DNA of 39,539 nt from Basidiobolus meristosporus CBS 931.73 (lineage: Eukaryota > Basidiobolomycota > Basidiobolomycetes > Basidiobolales > Basidiobolaceae), in the NCBI GenBank assembly GCA_002104905.1, contig MCFE01000749.1, forward strand, positions 1-39,539, read 5' to 3'. The position numbers and the translations under genes are program-made. The notes under the pieces were generated by a model, which was not told where the DNA came from, ran no database searches, and was given only the letters and a program-made list of their open reading frames with translations. Every line of letters starts with the position of its first letter. Positions within the stretch are counted from its first letter, which is position 1. Shown piece by piece: positions 9,075-39,539 of this stretch.

Positions 9075-12000
9075 TTACTCGGTCTCCATCCTCCACTCCA
9101 AAATAATCGACGAGATGAGATAAACGGCAAAATTGGTGATCAGTATGATCCCGAGGGACAGCGGCAGTCGGAACTTGTAGTAGAACGCGAGCAAAACCCC
9201 ACTTAGAATCACCACGCTGAAGAGTAAAAATGAGAATCCCAACCAGATGGTCGGGGAGATCGGGGGTAGCGTGATGGTCGCTGCTGACAGGCTCGTTCCT
9301 GCTGGCTTCATCTGGAAGCATCCTATCAGGAGGGTGATTCCCAACGTCAGTAATAGGTTCTGAATAGGCCCGGTCCAGACTGCGGTGAATGCCACTCTGA
9401 AGTAACCCGCTCTGGCAATGGCGACGTCAGCGAACAAATCGCCCAGCGAGTTCCCCCATGCGAGTACTGTCAGCCCAATGATTGCCTTCGATAGAGACAA
9501 AATCGTCCCAAGGGATGCTAGCAGGGCAACGATCTCATTAGATAATAGGTATATCCACAAGATGGACATCACGAACGTAACAAATGAGCACAGTAGTTCA
9601 TATATATACAAAACGGCAACAATCTTGATGGAGCGGAGTGGGATGTGGCCCGGGGTGGATTCGGAGTACACTCCCCTGCAGTATGCCATCAGAAGGAACT
9701 TCAAGTATCTAGCGATGTTTCTTTCATCCGTCGATAGCGAAATAGGCTCTCCATTGGTGCTGGTATTTAGTGAAGGCGAGTACAATGTGGTTGACGATGG
9801 TGTGGGTGAGCTACTGGATCTGGGGCTTAGCAAGGACTTTGCGTCAAGATACTCGGCAAAGCCGCTTCCGAAGTCCGTGGCGATGGTCAAAATGGGGTAG
9901 GCAACGAGGAATCCGAGAAGAAGCAGTGCCCCTGCTACTATGAGTATGGCTAGCCGGCCAGTTCCACGCAGGTCAAACCCTGCCAGATAGATTACCAACA
10001 AACTTGCGACGATTGGATATGTTGTGTTAAGGATTCGGTATTTTAAGAAGCGATGGACCGGGACGTGGGTTAGATGATAGATGAATCGAATCATGGCTTT
10101 GCGTGGTAGTGGCCACCACCAAGGTGCGTTTCGGACATTCTCGGAGGCAGTTGCATTGTCGAAGGAGCGGATGACGGAGTTGCTGGGCGAGCTGGCCATG
10201 AACACCGAGTTGGTTAGCTCTGGCGATGCCGGAATCTTGGGGGTATCCGATGCATTGCTGCTTTGAGCACTGATGGACATAAACGATCTTTGGGAGGTGG
10301 AGGGGCGAACACAGCGGATAGAGTCCTTGCGTCCCATACATCTAGCGTAAGTGCTAGACGTGGAAGGAACAACCACGTTAGAGTCGGAGCTGGGGACAGT
10401 CAGCAGCTTTCCCTGGCGTGTTGGTGAGCCACACTGCTGGATATTCTCACTGGAGTGTTTGATGCTATCCGAGCTTAGCGAGATGGGCTGCTTTTCATGC
10501 TCAACATGGCAGCCACACGCATATCGAATGATGTTTGTACTGACGATATCCTCTGCATACTCTTCAGGGTTCTGAGAGTTCATGGCGATCTCCTCAAGGT
10601 TGTCTTCATCCTCCTCTCGAATGTCGTCATCGACCTCGCTAATCATGTCCGAAAGGAATGGTGGCATGGAGAGGCATATCAGCAAACGGATAGGGATCAA
10701 GAAGATCCAGATTACAGTGCAGAAGACGCTGGCACCAGACTTGATCCACTGAAACACCGATGTTGGCTTCGAGATCCGGCAGCTGTCTTTGATGGAGTTG
10801 ACGATGTCGCTGTCTTCATACAAATGCAGCTTCGCCAGAGACCATAGGGACCGGACTGTGCTCTTCGGTGGTGCCTCTTTTTCCATGTACACCTCCGAAA
10901 ACTTGTCATTGATATCTGACAGGTCGGATGGTTCCTCCGTGACCGTCACCGTGGGAACTGCTCTGTTCTGGATCCTTGCAAGCTCTTCGGTGCCAGTGGT
11001 GATCGGGCCCGGTTTGTTTGCCCTTAAAAGTTGACTGCGCTCCCTGGGAACCGTTGCTGGCGCCTCATGACTAATGCTGAGTTTTGTTAAAAAGCCATCC
11101 CATTTCCACAGTGGCGAAAAAGTATACTAACCTTTCGTCGGATGCATCAGGATTCCCGATATCCGCGTCGGTCACCACCAGTCTGGGGATCGATAGTCCT
11201 AGTACGTTCGGTGATTCCTCCACTGGGGTGGAAGGGATGGATTTGAGATCCGGAGTCGTGGAGTTCAAAGGCGGTGCTTCAATGTTGGTGTCTAGATTCG
11301 ATTGAATGGATTCCATAGAAGTCCCGCGCTCAAGTGAAACTGGTTCGAGGGCGATTTGATGGGATCTCAGATTCCTTGGCTTATTTTGTTGACGTTTCTT
11401 TTTAAGGTAGAAGTGTCTGCAGATGAAGAATCCTAAAAAGAAGAGATAGTAGAGCAGCAGGATGACCGGTTCAAACCAATGGACTGTGCCGTCGTCAAAT
11501 ATCACCAGCAGGATGACCACAGCGATGGTGTAGATGGTCAAGTTACGAAGGTGGGAGAACTTGTCGATGGCCAAGCCACGGAATTTGACCACAAGGTTCG
11601 AGAAGGAGTACTCCTTGGAAGGCTTGAGTCGAAGGGCCCTGGTGAAGGACTGTAGTCTTCTTCTCAACCTCACGAAGGATTCAGGGTTGCTGGTTGAAGG
11701 CCGTCTTTCCAGATTTGCTCGTGGCGAATCCGGTCGCTGCGGCTCAACAGGGTTGTGTTGAGGAGCAGACAGTGAAGCGTTTTTGTGGCGGTAGTACGAG
11801 GCTACTATGATGCTCCCCAAGACGATGTTGAGAATGAACATGCCGCTTCCCACTGTCGCGCCAAATATCAAATCGAAGTCTCCAGAGCTGACCCCCGCAA
11901 ACGCCGTGAACAAATCAGGGGCGCCGTTACCGAAGGAGAGAAGAGTCAGGCCAGCGACCTCGCTACTCAGCCTCAAGTGGTCAGAAATATTCTGGAGGGC

Positions 12001-28709: not shown

Positions 28710-30423
28710 ACGTATTTAAGGGAAAGGAAATTCGTCAAAGGTAGTAAACAGAAGCTCGAGAAAACAAAAGGTCGGCAAAATCTTGCTTTCAGCACGGGTC
28801 AATGAGCGGTACAGGGGAAGTGCCAAGTGACAAAAGTACCCTGAAGAGAATGGGGTGGGGAGTCCTTGTTATATAGAGACTATGGGAACCAAGACCCAAT
28901 ACTATCTCGTGTAAGCCATCACTCGAGGAGTGACACTATCTGAAATCAATCGGGTTGAACACCTGGATTCGCTTACAGCAATCCAATATAAGCGTTAATT
29001 ATCAACAATCATGAGCATGCGAAATCACACAATCCATCCGTGATTGTGAGAGGTTCCAAATACCCAATCTACTCCATTCAGGGATTTGGAACTAGTGTTA
29101 TATTAGCAATCACCTTACGAGAGGGTCGCTTGAGCTTCCCAATCCTCAGTCGCAGACGCCGTATGAACCAAGGGTTTGGCATGTGGCGGCACTAAAGTAC
29201 ACGCAGCTTCGAGTCAGCTCCCACCATATCAAAGGGATGGGTCTCAGGGATGGGGGCTAAATGACACTTTCATCTCAGACACATTTCATTCAGCCAACTT
29301 GGGTAGAGGAAATCATTCTCTTGGTCCTACCAGTATTCCCATATGGCGCCACCAGGCTTATACCGGAATGATCGGAACGCAATCGCCTCATTGGGTGAAG
29401 GTATATTGGAAGCAGCTCTGTGTGCTTACTTGCACATACACATTCTTGCGTCCATAGGTGCGTTGCAGTTGCACAGGAAATGGCCCACAGAGAGTGGGAG
29501 TAATCGGTGCGTGAAGGGCGGAGCATGGAGCTCAATGGAATCAAAACCTATAAGCTAGGATTATCTTGAACTGAAAGAGGCAACGCGCTATGGATGCTTC
29601 CATAAGGCCTAATTAGTGATAGCTGGGGTTTAAGAGTTGAGGATGGAAAGTGTCACAGTGCTTGATCCTTGATAATCAGAGTTATCCTTGTTTGGGTTTA
29701 GTAGACACAACCTGTGTGGCGCGGCGAATTTGCATTCGTTCTAGGAGAGCTGCTGCTCCCGAGCTCTCTGAATAGCCGACACTCTGACGAATTACTATCT
29801 CCAACCTGCATTTTCACAGCAACTTTGTGGTTCAGTGTTACACAGCCGGGCTCAAATGAGTCAGGTGCGGATTTGCATCTCCACCAGCAATGGGATCGGC
29901 TGGATCATCAGGTGCATCCGGATATCTATAGATATGAGCAGAGTGACTCAAAGGTAGCGAGTACTACACTGTGGAGTGCAGAATGTTCTTTCGAACCGGC
30001 ATACAAAGCAACCAAGATGCAAACCTTCCGGGGCGGTTCCCATCTAGGCCAGCGAACATTGCGGGTTAGCTGGAGTCCGTAGGACATTGCTGAACGAGGA
30101 TGATCAATCTTGCTTGCCTCGACATCTAATACATCTCGCGGGTGATTGGGAGGTGGGGCTGATTTAATACTGATTAGGATTTCTGGTGTCCCATTAATCT
30201 TGATTTTTGAAGTGGATTGATGATTTAGTCCACATGCTCAGCGAGAAGTCACTGATTTTGTAATATTTTCACGCAACACCAGATATACTTCCGAATCTGT
30301 AGTTGATTCTCCACTCGGCTCCAAGTATATGAGCATATATGCACCGCTACTGTCCTCGAAACTATCCGCTCAACTCCCTTATTTTTCACTAGTTCTTGCT
30401 AGCTAACGGCAAAGATCCTGAAT
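28710..30423. other. Divergent intergenic region, no recognisable gene
   Basis: This contains the promoters of the minus-strand seven-helix gene and the plus-strand FAD oxidase. The frame at 29714-30082 (122 codons) and the overlapping frames near 29176-29558 have no recognisable similarity. TATATG-type sequences at 30325-30341 lie 80-100 bp before the oxidase start and may be its core promoter. Confidence 0.45.
28869..28875 (-). promoter_or_regulatory. TATA box of the seven-transmembrane gene
   Basis: TATATAA read on the minus strand, about 160 bp upstream of the start codon at 28709. It is the best core-promoter match in this flank. Confidence 0.4.
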
Positions 30424-31974
30424 ATGCGTGTTGCGGGTGCTGTTCATTTACTGTCGCTGCTGGCTGCTGCTGCTCAGCTTACCTTGGCTCAAGAGTCAGT
30501 ATTCTCTAGCCTGGCCCAGAACGCAACCTACCGTAGTCAAGCTGAGTTCTATATCCGAGATGGACCCGAGGCACAGCACAACAAATACCTGGCTGCTTTG
30601 AAATTCTTCAACAACCTGTACCAGCCAGAGGAGCTCCCCAAGACTGCTCTTCCTCTGGCTATCCTGAAGCTTCACCCTAAACAGGAGTATGACTTGAGCT
30701 GGTTAGTGGAGGCTGCACGAGTTACCGGAATCAAGATTTCTGCACGCTCTGGAGGGTATCATTCTGCTTACGCCAGTGTTTTACCAGTAAATGGAGTTAA
30801 AGAAACCCCCAGAGAGTTCGTTTTGGTTGACCTCTCTAGCCTCAAAGGCATCACTATTGATCCCAAGAGGAAGATAGCTGTTGTGGAGCCTGGGGTGACC
30901 GGAAGTGAGCTTTATGATGCGACTGCAAAGTATGGCCTCCATTTCCCAGGACCTCATACAAGCTTTGTTACTATCGGTGGGTTCCTCCTCCAAGGCGGTA
31001 TGGGCTTTGGATCGCGTTTGCTAGGTGCTGGCGTTGACAACGTCGTAGGCTTTGAGATTATCACATCTCGTCATAATGGCAGATCTCTGTACGTTGATGC
31101 AAACAATTATCCCGACTTGTTTTACGCTGTTCGTGGTGGTGGACAATTCTTCGGAGTGATCACCAAATTCCACCTGAAGGTGTATCCCATCGTAGACCAA
31201 CCAGCATTGATCCCAACTTACAGCGCCAAAACCATCAAACTGGAGACTTCCTTCTCGATCCACGACCAGAAAAATTTCCCTGCTGTTCTCGACTTCTATA
31301 AGAAATTCGACCCAACGGCACCTAAGAGCGTGGAAACCAAAATAGTTTTCATCAAGGATGCTGACGCTAATGCACAGCTCTTACTTTCGGCTACTTCTGT
31401 TGCCCCATTCAACTCGAGTGCCAGTGTAACTGCTGCGCTCAATGAGATCGAGAGTTTCAACAAAAACAATGGTGCATTCTTCGAGTCTAACGCACCAACC
31501 ACTTATTATGATGCGGTTCATGGAGGAGACAGCTCTTGGAGCACCCCGAATTTGTCTTACATTGCCGAGGATATCTGGATTGCTACCCCGCTCAGCGATA
31601 AGGTGTTGAAGGTGATTTCCGAGGTGTGGGCCAAAGCTCCCTCTGTCCTTTCGTCGATGTTCCTGAATACTGGAACTTGGGAAGCCCCATCGTCAAGTGC
31701 TCTTGGTTTCGACCCCAGCTATTCCCTTGGTATCTACAGCACATGGGTTCGCAACGGCGATGTCAAATGGGATGAAGCCAACATCCAGTGGTTGAAAGAC
31801 ACTGTAGAGGCTCTGAAGCCATATACCCTAGGATTCTATGCAAACGAAATGCAGCCTCGATCTGATGGGGATGCGAATTATTGGAGAAAATGTTACCAGC
31901 CTGATGCCTGGAAAAAGTTGAACAACGCGAAAGCCAAATGGGATTCTAGAAGAGTCTTCAAAGACCTGCAGTAA
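30424..31974 (+). CDS. Secreted FAD-dependent oxidase (GOOX/berberine bridge enzyme-like)
   Basis: One exon encodes 516 aa with a signal peptide (about 1-22). An N-terminal PCMH-type FAD-binding domain (about 75-255) contains KISARSGGYHS (104-114), VLVDLSSLKGI, AVVEPGV and VTIGG with QGGMGFGSRLLG. A substrate domain follows, and a short BBE-type C-terminus has YWRKCY...WDSRRVF. Related enzymes oxidise oligosaccharides, reduced sugars or alkaloids with O2, releasing H2O2, outside the cell. Bicovalent members carry a His in RSGGH and a Cys before the second glycine motif. Here Tyr occupies the His position (the His is one residue later, H113) and no Cys is seen near residues 176-186, so flavin attachment may be single or absent. 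Substrate unknown. Confidence 0.9.
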   Translation: MRVAGAVHLLSLLAAAAQLTLAQESVFSSLAQNATYRSQAEFYIRDGPEAQHNKYLAALKFFNNLYQPEELPKTALPLAILKLHPKQEYDLSWLVEAARVTGIKISARSGGYHSAYASVLPVNGVKETPREFVLVDLSSLKGITIDPKRKIAVVEPGVTGSELYDATAKYGLHFPGPHTSFVTIGGFLLQGGMGFGSRLLGAGVDNVVGFEIITSRHNGRSLYVDANNYPDLFYAVRGGGQFFGVITKFHLKVYPIVDQPALIPTYSAKTIKLETSFSIHDQKNFPAVLDFYKKFDPTAPKSVETKIVFIKDADANAQLLLSATSVAPFNSSASVTAALNEIESFNKNNGAFFESNAPTTYYDAVHGGDSSWSTPNLSYIAEDIWIATPLSDKVLKVISEVWAKAPSVLSSMFLNTGTWEAPSSSALGFDPSYSLGIYSTWVRNGDVKWDEANIQWLKDTVEALKPYTLGFYANEMQPRSDGDANYWRKCYQPDAWKKLNNAKAKWDSRRVFKDLQ

Positions 31975-32703: not shown

Positions 32704-33238
32704 GGGGGAGGGAAAGTCACCATTGTGGTGAAATCATTATTTTACTAAGTAGTTACACAAAGTCACTAAAGCTAAAAGGTAAAGAAGCCAGCTAAGTGTT
32801 TTTAAATTGCTCAAATAAATAGTCTAACATAAACTTAGTTTCTTGGGGAAGATTGCTCTGAATTAAATGATGCTCTTCTAGAGAGAAGAGAAAGTTGAAG
32901 CGTTTTGGGGGAATCACAAATTGTAATTGACACTTGTCTATATTGTAAAAATTGCAGCAAAAGCCTGCAATTACATTTTCAAGGAAAGGGGTATGGACTT
33001 TGAGGCAGCTTTGCCAAAGTGCAAGAAAGTGGTCAAGAGCTGCATCCTTACCCATTGAAGAATAATTTGGACCTTCAGGTGAATCCAATCCCAAGCAACC
33101 ATCAGGATTCAGCAATGAGGCAGTCATAATGCTAGCAGCTTGGAGTTGTTGGCCTTCTACATGATCTTATGGTAGGATCATGATGGCATTTTGCTGATTT
33201 TACTGCCAATTAAAGCAATAAATTTGACAGAGTTTAAA
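32704..33238 (-). mobile_element. Unit H: diverged, 5'-truncated family II LINE
   Basis: The frame 33127-32792 (minus) encodes the C-terminal LINE domain with WQSCLKVHTPF, QLQFVIPPKRFNFLF and ETKFMLDYLFEQF, matching the family II pattern of units B and G but clearly diverged. The 3' hairpin is TCACCA-TTG-TGGTGA at 32717-32731 and the terminal motif GGGGGAGGG, without a telomere repeat. It is the most diverged unit and lies nearest the unique DNA, consistent with being the oldest. Confidence 0.75.
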
Positions 33239-33240
33239 GG

Positions 33241-33626
33241 TAGGGGAGGGAAAGTCACCAAGTTGGTGAAATCTTTATTTGAGTTAAGAACTAATCTAAG
33301 TACAAATAAAGAAACCAATTAAGAGGTCTAGAACCTCTCTAATAAGTAGTCTAATTTATGTTTTGTTTCATCTCTAATGTTTGTTTCAATAAAGTAAAGC
33401 TCATTGGGGGTAAATATAAAATTCAAGGGTTTTGGGGGAGGTACAAATTGTAGATGTTTCTGATCAATATAATCCAAGACTGGAACCCAGCCTGGGATTA
33501 GGTGTAGTAGGAAAGGTGTGTGGACTTGTAAGTAGCTCTGCCACATAGATCTATGATGGTCCTGAGCCAGTAGTCTTGGTTTCTCAGCTTTTTGAAGTTT
33601 TGAAGCAAGCTCTGTTACTACAGCAG
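33241..33626 (-). mobile_element. Unit G: 5'-truncated family II LINE
   Basis: About 385 bp, nearly identical (roughly 98 percent by eye) to the 3' part of unit B (35262-35655). It encodes VVTELASKLQKAEKPRL, SYLQVHTPFLLHLIPG and the end KHKLDYLLERF. The 5' truncation point (plus-strand ...CAGCAG at 33626) abuts directly the TTAGGGTTAGGGG of unit F. The hairpin is TCACCAA-G-TTGGTGA at 33255-33269. Confidence 0.85.
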
Positions 33627-34148
33627 TTAGGGTTAGGGGAGGAAAGTCACCAAGTAATGAAATCTTCATTTTCTTATGACAAGTATCTAAAGAAGCCAAG
33701 TTAATCTGAAGTAATTCCTAGAAAGCTAGGACTGAGAGATATCTTCCTGGTAAGCCAGGTCTGAGAGTTGAGAAGCTGTGTGGTACTATATTTCCTAGTT
33801 AGCTAGGTCTCAGAGAGGTTTCCTGGAAAGCCAGGCCTGAGAAGTGAGAATCTGAATATATCTGAGCTAAGTTATACTGGTTTGCTGTAGCTGAATTGTG
33901 GCCAGAATGGCCAGTAGACTGGGGGAACTGAGATGAATTTCTGGGCAATCACTGGCCAAATTTACTAGGCAAATTTGTCCCATTAGCATTTCAAGGATTT
34001 CAGCCAATCAGAGCCTTTATTTTGCCCAATGGCTGATCAAGGCATCTCCCAATGAGCACACATCAATTTATTAATCAAATTTTGCTGGATCCAGGATTTG
34101 AACCCACAACCATGGGTATGGAAGGGTTAGGAATAACCACAAGGCTAA
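33627..34148 (-). mobile_element. Unit F: tRNA-derived SINE with LINE-type 3' tail
   Basis: Read on the minus strand, the unit opens with a tRNA-like head: an A box TAGCCTTGTGGTTA (complement of 34134-34147) and a B box GGTTCAAATCC (complement of 34094-34104), the internal RNA polymerase III promoter. A body of about 400 bp follows, with several imperfect repeats of a CTAGCT...AGGAA/CTCTCAG type. It ends with the same GAAGATTTCA, hairpin remnant (33647-33660) and CCTCCCCTAACCCTAA tail as the LINEs. It has no coding capacity, so it would depend on a LINE reverse transcriptase recognising the shared tail. A decayed tRNA gene beside a LINE fragment is the alternative, but the continuous tail argues against it. 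Confidence 0.7.
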
Positions 34149-34202
34149 GGGTTAGGGGGAGACAGTCACCAACAGGTGAAATCTTTATTTCAGTAGAAAC
34201 AA
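34149..34202 (-). mobile_element. Unit E: 54-bp family I LINE 3' end
   Basis: An extremely short copy: only GGGTTAGGGGGAGACAG, the hairpin TCACC-AACA-GGTGA (34166-34179) and about 20 bp of tail are present before the next unit starts. It shows how little of the 3' end is needed for a recognisable insertion and is inserted exactly at the 5' end of the SINE head. Confidence 0.75.
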
Positions 34203-35122
34203 GGGGAGGGAAAGTCACCAAGGTAGGTGAAATCTTTATTTGATTTCAGACAAGTCTAACTGCAAATAAAGAAGCCAGCTGGGAATAGAAGATTCCCAAA
34301 GTAAACACCAAGTTGAATATGAATAAATCTAAGCTAAAGTTAAGGCAGTATCCCAGAGTACACCGGAGTTCAGGTTCATGGGGGAGTGAAGTAGATAAGC
34401 TTGAGAGATATAATAATCTTTAAGGAAGTGGGTAACAGCAGGTGAAGGGGAGTTTTTGATAAGTGAAGTGAATCTTGAGATCAGAGACTCCTCTAATGAG
34501 AAGGTCTTGTAAACTGGAGAATCAGGAAACTCTTTAAAGGCATGGTCAGAAGGTTCCCAGCAAAACTGGTCAGAGACATTTTGAGAGAATTCTTTAGCAA
34601 TACTTTTGTCAAGTACTACCTCCAGAGTGTGATGGTTGATAAATCTCATGTTAACAATCTTGGATAAGTTGTAACCTTGTTGCTTGAGATACATCCTATG
34701 CTCAGATATAGGAATAAACTCCACATTGGCAAAGTAGCAGACAGCCCAGTCAGTAGCAGGAGGCAAATCAGAAGTGGCAGGAAACTTTCATTTTGGTCTT
34801 GGAGAGGAGCAGCAGGATGACTTGAGGAAGCAGGAACAGGACTTTTTGACACTTCAGAGTAGGAAGAGTGAGCAGGAGCAGATGATTCTTGGGGAGTCTT
34901 GTTGCAGGAAGAGTTGGCACAGAGACAATAGATTCTTGCAGATCAGAGAAGGCAGAAAAGAGCTATTGGACTTGTTTCTTGAGTAGAGCATTTTCAGCTT
35001 CAACAAGTGCAAGCCTTTCCTCAAGGAAGGAAATCTGAAGGGAATGGAGTGAAGGCATAAGAAATAAGAAGAAGAGGGTAAGATGGGGTGGGTGGGTGGG
35101 AAAATTAGCAGGGAGAAGAGAA
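34203..35122 (-). mobile_element. Unit D: internally deleted LINE, ORF1-like fragment on a family II tail
   Basis: About 920 bp. The 3' part has the family II tail with hairpin TCACC-AAGGTA-GGTGA (34215-34230). Instead of reverse transcriptase sequence it carries an ORF1-like region (34329-34766) and, upstream, a coiled-coil-like stretch (LEERLALVEAENALLKKQVQ, about 34965-35030). It looks like a non-autonomous derivative formed by loss of the RT segment. Confidence 0.6.
34329..34766 (-). pseudogene. ORF1-like fragment of a LINE
   Basis: 145 codons containing VCYFANVEFIPISEHR, LKQQGYNLSKIVNMRFI and HHTLEVVLDKSIAKEF. This pattern (a strand, basic helix and L-E-V-V-L core) resembles the RNA-binding ORF1 region of fungal LINEs as I remember it, not verified by alignment. 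The start is uncertain, because upstream coiled-coil coding lies in another frame, so the fragment is probably not translated as a complete protein. Confidence 0.45.
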
Positions 35123-35261
35123 GGGTTAGGGGGGAGACAGTCACCAACAGGTGAAATCTTTATTTCAGTTGAAACAAAGAAGCCAGCTACTGTGTAGCTG
35201 ATAGTGTACTGAGGAATGTAGGTATAGAGATGATAGTCTTCAGTGGTCAAGACACTGTTCA
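35123..35261 (-). mobile_element. Unit C: short family I LINE 3' end
   Basis: About 140 bp corresponding to the last codons and 3' tail of unit A (compare 37311-37490; both begin at a TGAACAGTGTCTTGA block on the minus strand). The junction motif is GGGTTAGGGGGG and the hairpin TCACC-AACA-GGTGA at 35141-35154. Confidence 0.8.
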
Positions 35262-37310
35262 GGGTAGGGTAGGGGGAGGGAAAGTCACCAAGTTGGTGAA
35301 ATCTTTATTTGAGTTAAGAACTAATCTAAGTACAAATAAAGAAGCCAATTAAGAGGTCTAGAACCTCTCTAATAAGTAATCTAATTTATGTTTTGTTTCA
35401 TCTCTAATGTTTGTTTCAATAAAGTAAAGCTCATCAGGGGTAAATATAAAATTCAGGGGTTTTGGGGGAAGTACAAATTGTAGATGTTTCTGATCAATAT
35501 AATCCAAGACTGGAACCCAGCCTGGGATTAGGTGTAGTAGGAAAGGTGTGTGGACTTGTAAGTAGCTCTGCCACATAGATCTTAGATGGTCCTGAGCCAG
35601 TAGTCTTGGTTTCTCAGCTTTTTGAAGTTTTGAAGCAAGCTCTGTTACTACAGCAGAGCCAACCAGGGTGTGCCAGCAAGAAGATTTCAGGGAGGAGTTA
35701 GATTGAAGCCATTGTTTGATGGAGGGGTTATGTGATTTCTGAAGTTTGACTAGGAAGGAAGCCCGGAGATAGATCATTCTGGATTTGGTATGGGTAGAAC
35801 CCAAAGGCTCCATTAGTTGCATGGATATAGGGAGATACTGGAAGATAAGGTACCAAGGATCTGATACACTGATGGAGAAATTTATCCAGGCGGTGAAGTT
35901 CTCTGGAGGTTAGGGGTATAATGTGGAGACCAAATTCAAGTACCGGCAGTACATACTGCTTCAGAAGTATAGGGATCTTTTGAATTGGAGTGTCTGGAGT
36001 GACTACTACCAGAAGCTTTTTGAGAGCCTGTTGGGCAAGACGGATCCTATTATTCAGGTGGAGCTTTGAGTCAATCCCATGTTGACAAAACGGCAGACCT
36101 AGATATATTGCAGTTTGTTGTGGCAGAATGCTAGTGTTCTGTATAGTTGTAGTGCATCCAATTGGGACTGTCTTGGAAATTGAGAGTGAGAGGTTGTTGG
36201 CAGCCAAGTACTTCTCAATGATGGCAGTGTCTGCTATGGGATTAGGAGTAGCAATCTTGATATCATCCGCATAGAGAGTTAGTAGTGGATAGGGAGAGTC
36301 TGGTGAGGGGCCTTTTGGAAATAAAGGAAAGTCATGTAGGAATATCACAAATAGTAAGGGACCTAGTACAGATCCTTGGACTACTCCATTTGGAACCTCA
36401 TAAGTCTCTGATGTGCAACTTGGATGCAAAATTTTGGCTGAGTTCTCACAAAATAGAGAACGTACAAGAAGGGTCATTGGTAGTGTGGTAACTGCTAATA
36501 GCTTTCTCCAAAGCAGAGCTCTGTCCACAGAGTCAAAGGCTTTAGTAATGTCAAACAGAATGGTTGGCAATGAGAATTGAAGTGAATGATCATGGCTTAG
36601 CACTACAGCCATATCCAAGGAGAGTTTGGGCAAGAAGCCAAACTGAGAAGGATGGAATGGATATAGTTGAGATTGCAAGGATCTTGCTATTATAAGCTCA
36701 AAGATTTTCCGGCAGGTTGGTAGGAGTGAAACTGGCCGGTAAGAACCTGGGAGTGAGTGTTTCCCCTTCCCTTTGTATAAGGGTATTACATTTGCCTGTG
36801 ACCAGGCCTTTGGGGTAGTCAATTGTTGGGCACAGATAGAGTAGAATGGGATAAGTAAGTGACTCATTTTGGAGTAGCACACCCGGAGTAGATTGTAGGT
36901 AATCAAGTCATGTCCAGGTGCAGTATTTGCAGGAAGCTTCTTTAAAATTTTCTCCAGAAGCTTTGCTGAAATCAAAATTGGAGATGTTGGACTGCTAGAT
37001 ATGTTACCAGTATGGTAGAAAGGAGGAGTGGGATGCACGGATGAATCAAAGAATATAGGGGCCAGTTTGTCTGGTGATGGTATACTCCTTGCTTGGGGTC
37101 TCATGGCTTTGTATACTCTTGATATGGACCTTGTGGTGGCATTCATATTTACTAAGGGCAAGGTATCCATGATATGAGCCCATAATCTAGTATGCTCAGT
37201 GATCTGTAGTGACTTGGAGTAGGAGATTGCGCTTCCAGGAGGTTCTGTGTTTTTGGGTTAGGGAAACATAGGTAGCTGGATTTAAGGCAGAAATGATGGA
37301 TTTCATTTAA
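35262..37310 (-). mobile_element. Unit B: 2-kb 5'-truncated family II LINE
   Basis: The longest complete-to-3'-end copy in the window. It contains the reverse transcriptase and C-terminal domain, then a 3' UTR with AATAAA and hairpin TCACCAA-G-TTGGTGA (35285-35299). The 3' junction is GGGTAGGGTAGGGGGAGGG, a degenerate telomere-like repeat. Its 5' truncation at about 37310 directly meets GTTAGGGTTAGGG of unit A. Confidence 0.85.
35358..37310 (-). pseudogene. Family II LINE reverse transcriptase, frameshifted
   Basis: An RT frame at 37170-35728 (480 codons) carries the non-LTR motif set: LYKGKGKH, YRPVSLLPTCRKIFE, FDITKAFDSVDRALL, PNGVVQGSVLGPLLF, LYADDIKIATPN and YLGLPF. A shift near 35790 moves the rest into a second frame (to 35358), with SYLQVHTPFLLHLIPG and KHKLDYLLERF. 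Another shift near 37210 separates the RT from its upstream VSLTQKHRTSW segment. The catalytic YADD aspartates are intact. No endonuclease, RNase H or zinc knuckle is visible, because the copy is 5'-truncated and nothing of that kind follows the RT. Clade not assigned. Confidence 0.88.
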
Positions 37311-39539
37311 GTTAGGGTTAGGGGGGAGACAGTCACCAACAGGTGAAATCTTTATTTCAGTTGAAACAAAGAAGCCAGCGCTACTGTTGTAGCTTTGATA
37401 CAAGAGTGTGTAGCTGAGGGGAATTTGTAGGTAAGTTAATAAGAAGTGATGATAGTTCTTCAGTGCTCAAGACACTGTTCAGTGGGAAGGGGGGTAGCAA
37501 GAGAGGTAAGAATGACTTGTGAACAACATTAATGAGGGGAATGTGATAAGGATTGATATTCATCATAAAGGGAGTGTGCTGCTGCAGATATTGCTGCCAA
37601 AGGTCTGTCAAGTACTTCAGGTAGGCCAGCTTGGGTTTTTCTGACTGCAGAATATAATGAGCAAACTTCTTGACTTCAGGATCTCCAAGTATAGTTCTCC
37701 AGCAGGAGCCAGGTGTTGTGTGGTGTGTTCTCTTCCAGGCCTTAATCAGTGGGTTGTTGCAGTTGTGAAGTCTGAGGTATAATCTGGTTCTAAGGTAGAG
37801 AAGTCTGATCTTATAGGGCATAAACCCAAAAGCACCAAGAATAGCATGTCTGTAGGGGCATTCAGGCAAATGAGGCACCAAGGAGGTAATGCACCATACT
37901 GCAAACTTGTCAAGCTTAGTGCAGTCTCTAGAAGTAAGAGAGAGAAGTGGTAAGCCAAATTCCAGGACAGGGAAGACAAACTGCTTGAGTAGAAGGAGGC
38001 AGCTGGGAGCTGAAAGTTGTAGGAGGAGTAACAGCCAACAGCTTGTGGAGTGCCTGTCTTGCAAGGATAATTCTCTTCTTCAGGTGTGCTCCAGAGTCTA
38101 GTCCAGTAGGAAGGAAAGGAAAGCCAAGATATGTAGCAGAAACCTGAGCAGGTAGAGTGGAGTTCTCCAAGCTGATGGGAGAGCCCAAAGGTACTGTCTT
38201 TGCAATGGAAAGCTGGAGATTATTCTTCTGCAGATACTGGTGGATGGTCTGGGAGTCTTGTTGCACATTGGAGGAGGATATTCTGATGTCATCAGCAAAG
38301 AGAGTAACCAGGCAGTCAGCTGAGAGTCTTGGAGAAATCATTCAGGAAGATGGCAAACAGTATAGGACCAAGCACAGAGCCTTGAACCACTCCATTAGGA
38401 ACTGAGAACACAGCTGATTGCTCACTTGGGTGCAGAATTCTTGCTTGTGGATCCAGAAACAGAGACCTGACAAGGAGGGTGAGAGAGGTACTGGAGAAGC
38501 ATTGCAACTTGGACCAAAGCAGATTTCTGTCAACTAAATCAAAGGCCTTAGTAATATCAAACAGAACTGAGGGATACTTGCACTGGAGAGAGTGATCTTG
38601 GCTAAGTATGACTGCATATTCCAAGGAGAGGCCAGGAACAAAGCTAAACTGTGCAGGATGAAACTTGAGGGAGTCAGAGTGAAGCTCTTGAGCAAGCAGA
38701 AGCTCAAACACCTTTCTGCAGGTGGGCAGCAGAGATATTGGCCTGTAGGAGCTAGGATCCAGGTGCTTTCCTTTACCCTTGTACAGTGGCAGAACATTTG
38801 CAAAGGACCATTCCACAGGAGTAGAAAGCTGGGCTGAGCATTGCTGAAACAGTGGAAGCAGAAGTGCAGACATGGCCTTGGTACTAGTCTTCAGAAGCTC
38901 ATAAGAGATTGTGTCCACACCTGGAGCAGTAGAGTTGGGAAGCCTTTTGAGCACATTATGGATTCTCCTTTGATCAAGTGCAAGTGGGATGGGCAGAGTC
39001 TTGAAGTCAGGATGAAAGCCAGGAGTTGAGTACTGCTTTGTAGAGAAGAAGATGTTAGCCAGCTGTTCTGTTGAAGGTAACTTCCTGGAAGAGGGCCTCA
39101 TTGCCCTGTAGAGTCTTGATACTGTTCTTGTTATAGAGTTGGAAGATTGCAGAGGCAAAGAACTCATAATATGATCCCAGAGCTGAGTATGCAGAGTGTG
39201 GTGAATTGCCTTGGAGTGGTGTATTGCTGTCCAGGAGGAGTTTCTCTGTTTTTGGGTTAGGGAAACTCAGGTAGCTTTGTTGCAGGGCTGAACAATGGAT
39301 TCCCATTTTCTTGAGGTAACAGCAGTAGTCTTGCATGGCAGTGAGAGGGAGGCAGACACAGAATCAGATGCTTCACAAAGAGCAGGCATAGTTGAGATCA
39401 TCTGGCAGAGAAAGTAGCAACTGGCAAGCTTCAAGTAGTTCCCAAAGTCTTTCTTCTGATTCTTGGTAGCTTTGTGGGTGAGCACAGTAAGTTTTGGCAG
39501 CTTCTTCTTCACACTGGTTGCATAGAAAGGGACCAGGCT
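37311..39539 (-). mobile_element. Unit A: family I LINE, extends past the window
   Basis: The family I reverse transcriptase and tail occupy 37381-39539. The 3' end has GTTAGGGTTAGGGGGGAGACAG (37311 onward; two telomere units), hairpin TCACC-AACA-GGTGA (37333-37346) and AAATAAAG just upstream in element orientation. The 5' end is not in the window, so it cannot be said whether this copy is full length. Confidence 0.85.
37381..39538 (-). pseudogene. Family I LINE reverse transcriptase, one stop and two frameshifts
   Basis: Reading from the window edge, one frame runs to 38316, broken only by a TGA at 39267-39269 (unit B has a sense codon there). It includes LYKGKGKHL, YRPISLLPTCRKVFE, LFDITKAFDLVDRN and PNGVVQGSVLGPILFAIFL. 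A frameshift near 38330 leads to LFADDIRISSSN (frame to 37928), and another near 38000 leads to the C-terminal part (to 37381) with VFPVLEFGLPL, LWQQYLQQHTPF and a final SKLQQ. The LINE-type domains are all present but the copy cannot encode an active protein without recoding. Divergence from unit B is large, marking a separate family. Confidence 0.88.

Follow-up and report, generated by a model that had tools for sequence, protein, structure and literature searches.

A subterminal array of candidate telomere-targeted LINE and SINE-like elements in the fungus Basidiobolus meristosporus

The retroelement array of contig C1034

The DNA analysed here (the window) is a 39,539-bp stretch of Basidiobolus meristosporus CBS 931.73, which corresponds to contig C1034 of an 89.0-Mb, 1311-contig assembly. 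Its right-hand part holds a row of retroelement copies interspersed with short telomere-type tracts. Eight retroelement 3' ends were located, at approximately 32704, 33241, 33639, 34158, 34202, 35132, 35275 and 37324, arranged head to tail and all facing left. This agrees with an earlier note on this DNA, which had described at least eight such units without poly(A), and indeed no poly(A) was seen at the eight 3' ends.

All eight units lie on the minus strand, and the telomere-type tracts are read on the plus strand. Unit A (37324..39539) is a copy of a long interspersed nuclear element (LINE), designated LINE-A, that is cut by the contig end. Its second open reading frame (ORF2) is in frame-shifted pieces, with a reverse transcriptase (RT) match (RVT_1) at 38316-39266 and a weaker one, below the cut-off, at 37928-38341, and a GTTAGGGTTAGGG tract (37311..37323) precedes it. 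Unit B (35275..37310), preceded by a variant tract, AGGGTAGGGTAGGG (35261..35274), is a 5'-truncated copy of a second family, LINE-B, with an ORF2 RT at 35728-37257 (RVT_1, 4.9e-21). Unit C (35132..35260) is a fragment of a LINE-A 3' end behind a AGGGTTAGGG tract (35122..35131). Unit D (34202..35121) is an ORF1-only element with an ORF remnant at 34329-34787 and no RT, and is thus non-autonomous and HeT-A-like in content. Unit E (34158..34201), a stub of ~45 bp from a LINE-A 3' end, again follows a AGGGTTAGGG tract (34148..34157). Unit F (33639..34147), preceded by GTTAGGGTTAGGG (33626..33638), is a short non-coding element of ~510 bp that resembles a short interspersed nuclear element (SINE), with a B-box-like motif and a LINE-type 3' end. 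Unit G (33241..33625) is a 5'-truncated fragment of a LINE-B 3' end, 98% identical to 35273-35572 over 300 nt. Unit H (32704..33050) is what remains of the 3' end of a related LINE, old and degenerate, with no telomere motif at its 3' end; other copies are 71-86% identical. Between H and G lies a dispersed repeat of ~180 bp (33056..33237), with copies that are 74-82% identical and found on both strands; it occupies many internal places in the genome, in either orientation.

The earlier note had placed a G-rich motif before each unit, which proved correct as described for F, E, C, A and B; before G only TAGGG is present, and before D and H there is none. It had also stated that 5' truncations lie directly on the next telomere-like motif. 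This applies to five of the seven inter-unit boundaries, where the 5' side of an element meets a telomere-type tract directly; at the remaining two, E abuts D without a tract and the ~180-bp repeat separates H from G. GTTAGGG occurs 12 times in the window versus 3.5 times expected, a count that none of 100 shuffles reached. Nine of the 12 lie on the plus strand of the array region, where six form four of the joints and three (35909, 37257 and 39256) fall within elements.

Old, diverged relatives of unit H were found at seven further loci (L060, L062, L063, L064, L068, L069 and L074), some of them deep in contigs; their 3' ends often retain TTAGGG, intact or decayed. In three pairs of loci on different contigs (L063/L066, L069/L072 and L074/L075), common flanks point to duplicated segments. 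The unique part of the window carries a sodium/calcium exchanger-type gene (PF01699) at 9075-11126 and a FAD-binding oxidase-type gene (PF01565) at 30403-31974. In a search for an alternative haplotype of this chromosome end, the window at ~28.65-32.70 kb matched itself alone among 40 scored candidates.

The elements and their coding capacity

As read from sequence, the element set comprises two LINE families with a predicted apurinic/apyrimidinic (APE)-type endonuclease, an ORF1-only element and the SINE-like element of ~510 bp, all with similar 3' ends. In LINE-B, an ORF1 of at least 294 aa lies ahead of an ORF2 that combines endonuclease and RT. A 952-aa open frame was found in 19 of 55 LINE-B matches; most of these contain a single TAG, perhaps the natural stop. 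Six LINE-B 5' pieces are ~99% identical by eye. Among 14 stop-free LINE-B sequences, the ratio of nonsynonymous to synonymous differences (pN/pS) was 0.25, which suggests purifying selection on ORF2 in these copies, although the requirement for stop-free sequences favours a low value. For LINE-A, a frame of at least 707 aa covers endonuclease and RT, and no ORF1 was seen in the copies read.

The APE-type endonuclease was recognized through PF14529, which matched a database relative (P0001) at 3e-6, just above the cut-off, and a genome copy at 4.6e-4, below it. GDxN and SDH residues, which we take to be marks of an APE-type endonuclease, can be read in LINE-A. The endonuclease part found no match in the PDB, and Pfam reported no restriction-like domain in P0001, no dedicated model for it having been searched. 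An endonuclease-deficient element was considered and is ruled out by the APE-type domain predicted ahead of the RT. Structure matches of the RT were distant only (L1 ORF2p and R2). By sequence, the window RT matches the B. meristosporus CBS 931.73 protein K493DRAFT_348252 (P0004) with 61% identity over 55% of the query; this gene model joins stretches that, by eye, hardly differ from unit B and unit A. Close relatives outside the genome are few (P0001-P0003 and P0122), after which identity among the database relatives listed falls to ~22-35%.

Copies of unit D elsewhere have ORF1 frames of 299 aa (L014) and 271 aa (L029), and the window copy shares 23% identity over 128 aa with LINE-B ORF1 (E 3e-11 in a single comparison). 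A motif of approximately AATTAGCAGGGAGAAGAGAAGG occurs twice at the 5' side of the copies in L014, L029 and L032, and the window copy is truncated within it. The SINE-like element carries GGTTCAAATCC, which by eye resembles a B-box. A tRNA origin was not confirmed, as neither ARAGORN nor Rfam at E up to 1 returned anything. Copies of the SINE-like element abut the terminal arrays of contig C424. The 3' ends have a hairpin of the UCACC/GGUGA type in common. Although 91% of cells in the alignment are paired, none of the pairs varies on both of its sides, and each of 500 shuffles does equally well; the helix is therefore conserved in sequence and not proven by covariation.

Chromosome ends, junctions and telomerase

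Across the assembly, the 3'-end motif was found at 1,649 sites (1508 forward and 141 reverse), versus 1+1 for a reversed-pattern control. AGACA-type 3' ends account for 730+71 sites (control 7+9). TTAGGG lies within 8 nt of such an end at 658+47 sites, versus none in the control, with 9 of the first 100 rows of this count being double counts from two-repeat tracts. When the first 100 of the 801 AGACA-type sites were compared by eye with this set, 84 were also in it.

At the sites examined, copies are not scattered, a pattern that would have counted against the earlier note. In contigs larger than 60 kb, all 68 sites of the AGGAAA (SINE-like) class (first 100 of 270) and 35 of 36 of the AGACA class (first 100 of 801) lie within 25 kb of the contig end faced by their 5' side, or 103 of 104 together. 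The mean chance of such placement is 15% per site for AGGAAA and 12% for AGACA; the sites come from 47 and 18 contigs, respectively, sites on the same contig are not independent, and many contig sizes were interpolated from size rank, which is monotone on 47 known sizes. Similarly, among the first 100 of the 1,649 motif sites, all 38 in 11 large contigs lie within 22.2 kb of an end. Chance, or an ordinary LINE cluster, is ruled out by the genome-wide counts together with this end-specific placement.

TTAGGG is the telomere repeat of the species, as the earlier note had supposed: the terminal arrays fetched whole, at six contig ends, contain 23-37 units each, and the tips read are almost pure TTAGGG. 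Of seven terminal arrays examined, six are seated directly on LINE-A, LINE-B or SINE-like sequence (C1241, C795, C1193, C403 and both ends of C424), three of them from a random draw of ten contigs. In that draw, three contigs had a TTAGGG array at the right end, each with element 3' ends just inside it; the other seven had neither array nor element in their first 2 kb and last 3.8-5 kb (for C928, minus the last 126 bases). Contig C424 (312,558 bp) has an array at each end, each directly on a SINE-like copy and with mirrored orientations, and is apparently a complete small chromosome. In the assembly as a whole, GTTAGGGTTAGGG occurs 8571 times forward versus 156 times reverse, so that most contigs are oriented with the telomere to the right. 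C1034 itself stops inside unit A without an array; nevertheless, the position of the chromosome end to the right of the window, proposed in the earlier note, is well supported, because the telomere repeat is TTAGGG and copies are placed at the ends they face.

A set of 70 distinct junctions was read. Apart from those in the ten random contigs, loci were picked by similarity to the window, and the sample leans on loci similar to 35122-35420. Diverged old copies missing the strict motif stand outside this count, and several of them retain decayed TTAGGG-like sequence. At least one telomere-type unit immediately precedes the 3' end in 66 of the 70: one unit in 45, two in 11 and three to seven in 10, with none in four. 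The 60 junctions with two units or fewer compare with an expectation of 2/30 (1 of 15) for a uniform position in a 30-repeat array, and tracts of at least five units were found in only two. The length of the G-run adjoining the element ranges between 3 and 10, and TTA directly precedes this run in 51 of 69 junctions; in 13 of 69, the element-adjacent unit is a variant without the first T (e.g. GTAGGG, CTAGGG). In 39 of the 70, internal sequence of a LINE-A, LINE-B, D or SINE-like copy forms the proximal flank, from which it follows that elements are stacked on 5'-truncated elements. In a slightly different set, with other subterminal repeats included, the flank matches another fetched place that continues differently in 53 of 66 cases. 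Truncation points have bases in common with the start of TTAGGG more often than expected by chance: zero overlap was seen in 15 of 55 rows (one of which is a self match) versus 28.7 expected, with a minimum of 16 in 2,000 simulations.

Telomerase_RBD matches were obtained at C880:173109-173423 and in none of 14 control genomes, and a T-motif peptide matches solved TERTs (best E 1.9e-4). Judged from these matches, a telomerase gene is present, and an absence of telomerase is ruled out.

Formation of the array and its significance

The region is probably a subterminal array of telomere-targeted non-long terminal repeat (non-LTR) retroelements, primed at chromosome ends that telomerase had seeded. 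What is observed is the layout, the position at contig ends with TTAGGG arrays, the short tracts, the resemblance among 3' ends, the presence of endonuclease and RT in an ORF2, and a telomerase gene. From these we infer the priming, the order of events, telomerase as the maker of the short tracts and mobilization in trans. The 3' end of the element RNA, where a short hairpin leads into a C-run, would be copied from a G-rich telomeric 3' end (TTAGGG-OH). The cDNA would run outward, so that the 5' side of the element, often truncated, becomes the new chromosome end, onto which telomerase would seed TTAGGG. If the next element were primed after one or two repeats, a short internal tract would result; otherwise the tip would mature to 23-37 repeats. 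The LINEs would supply RT and endonuclease, and the ORF1-only and SINE-like elements would make use of their similar 3' end.

Priming by the G strand, as put forward in the earlier note, is supported by the TTA before the G-run, by the variable G-run and by microhomology on the far side, and it is still something that we infer. The orientation, the phase of the joints and the variability of the G-run agree with pairing between a G-strand end and the C-rich RNA 3' end. The earlier note had allowed for both end priming, as in HeT-A, and insertion inside the repeat, as in TRAS/SART and MoTeR. Because long proximal tracts are nearly absent, ends with about one repeat are favoured, and with them priming at ends seeded by telomerase rather than insertion into arrays already in place. 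A more specific version, which can be offered only tentatively, is a relay in which an end that recedes or breaks receives one or two TTAGGG from telomerase, the stub directly primes LINE, SINE-like or ORF1-only RNA without nicking, and the end is healed again.

Several points weigh against end priming on seeded tips. ORF2 encodes an APE-type endonuclease, which priming on a free end does not need. The mean overlap at truncation points (1.51) falls within the simulated means (mean 1.18, largest 4.04), although these are inflated by donors carrying telomere runs. An AGACA-type copy with a single TTAGGG lies 42.6 kb from the end it faces (C136:42600), and diverged relatives of unit H are found farther inside contigs, in either orientation, e.g. 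C454:10270 in a contig of ~124 kb (interpolated). At the tip of C1, the order is a LINE-A stub of ~180 bp, a telomere-type tract, ~37 nt of DNA and then the array, so that DNA intervenes between the last element and the array. Finally, part of PMC7367193 describes internal tracts of more than three repeats as breakage-prone in MoTeR, so the short tracts may be what is left of longer ones.

Trimming of longer tracts is accordingly the main alternative to end priming on ends of about one repeat. In target-primed reverse transcription of the TRAS/SART or MoTeR kind, the APE endonuclease would nick the G strand in a standing array, and the long proximal tract would later be trimmed by breakage, or the basal repeats alone would be cut. 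The elements do encode such an endonuclease, a constant phase of the junctions would be in keeping with site-specific cleavage, and MoTeR has the same orientation, its tracts spanning half a repeat to over 20, according to a portion of PMC7367193. We nevertheless consider nicking rather unlikely, as 60 of 70 junctions have at most two units versus 23-37 at the tips, and gradual trimming should leave intermediates, yet five units or more remain at only two junctions. The unit lacking its first T in 13 of 69 junctions, set against nearly pure TTAGGG at the tips, would suit a different scheme, in which one or two CCCUAA units already form the end of the element RNA, broken DNA ends prime its reverse transcription directly through 1-3 nt of pairing, and telomerase acts at the tip only. 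The microhomology at the flank would suit it too. This scheme is improbable given tracts of three to seven units in 10 of 70 junctions, and truncated elements at mature tips show the same TTAGGG start, which suits telomerase. That the arrays owe their growth chiefly to exchange between chromosome ends, by recombination or break-induced replication, and little to retrotransposition seems very improbable: SINE-like copies do recur at a spacing of ~528 bp on several contigs (e.g. C2, C25, C69 and C83), and three pairs of old copies have flanks common to different contigs, but truncation points and partners are many and differ, ORF2 appears to be under purifying selection in stop-free copies, and the origin of the first element-TTAGGG joints would be left unexplained.

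End priming on telomerase-seeded tips can be compared with known telomeric elements. In HeT-A, TART and TAHRE of Drosophila, the 3' end points inward. These elements form tandem end arrays in which an ORF1-only member stands beside RT-encoding ones, as a section of PMC4700185 describes, and unit D with its copies in L014 and L029 is the HeT-A-like, ORF1-only, non-autonomous member here. Drosophila ends, however, lack telomerase and simple repeats, whereas a TERT gene, TTAGGG tips and a telomere-type unit at 66 of 70 joints are found here. TRAS1 and SART1 of Bombyx mori are of the APE type and have two ORFs. LINE-B likewise has an APE endonuclease and two ORFs, and LINE-A shows the endonuclease-RT frame. 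TRAS1 and SART1 are LINEs targeted to the telomere repeat, which their endonuclease cuts (PMC7265360, in part). They have a poly(A) tail, in contrast to the junctions read here, where none was seen and the 3' end meets the G-run after a telomere-type unit in 66 of 70.

The closest likeness in arrangement is to MoTeR1 and MoTeR2 of Magnaporthe oryzae and FoTeR of Fusarium oxysporum, fungal telomeric non-LTR elements with 5' ends outermost and telomere repeats between units, all of which is seen here. Passages of PMC7367193 and PMC12857005 describe MoTeR arrays as head to tail, with 5' ends nearest the chromosome end, TTAGGG tracts in between and truncated copies, and MoTeR2 as having termini in common with MoTeR1 but no RT. 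Seeding at truncation points was reported for 17 of 23 truncated elements (PMC7367193, in part). MoTeR and FoTeR group with CRE/SLACS and have a restriction-like endonuclease (PMC12857005, in part), in contrast to the APE type predicted here, and tracts here are mostly of one unit, versus 3-7 on the 3' side of FoTeR. Overall, the predicted system is one that works like MoTeR/FoTeR and partly like HeT-A/TART, yet it is neither, as the nuclease type differs from the former and telomerase is present.

The fungal telomeric LINEs treated in section 18 of PMC12857005 form one clade with a restriction-like endonuclease. The B. meristosporus system, in a deep-branching lineage of fungi (Basidiobolomycota), seems to have arisen independently, with an endonuclease of another type and HeT-A-like and SINE-like passengers of its own. 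Among the matches listed in the open-access literature, none dealt with telomeric elements of Basidiobolus, nor did any describe a telomeric SINE from a fungus. The findings also bear on the old question of chromosome number in Basidiobolus, for which microscopy of B. ranarum gave about 60 to many hundreds (PMC3281927, in part). Dividing the telomere-repeat count of the assembly by ~30 repeats per array gives a rough estimate of ~280 telomeric contig ends, to which internal tracts add slightly, and this stands beside the 312.6-kb contig capped at both ends. Joints of about one repeat tie telomerase action to LINE priming in a way that is concrete and can be tested. If the relay were true, a Drosophila-like retrotransposon telomere would exist alongside a working telomerase at probably hundreds of chromosome ends, and B. 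meristosporus may represent an intermediate between telomerase telomeres and retrotransposon telomeres.

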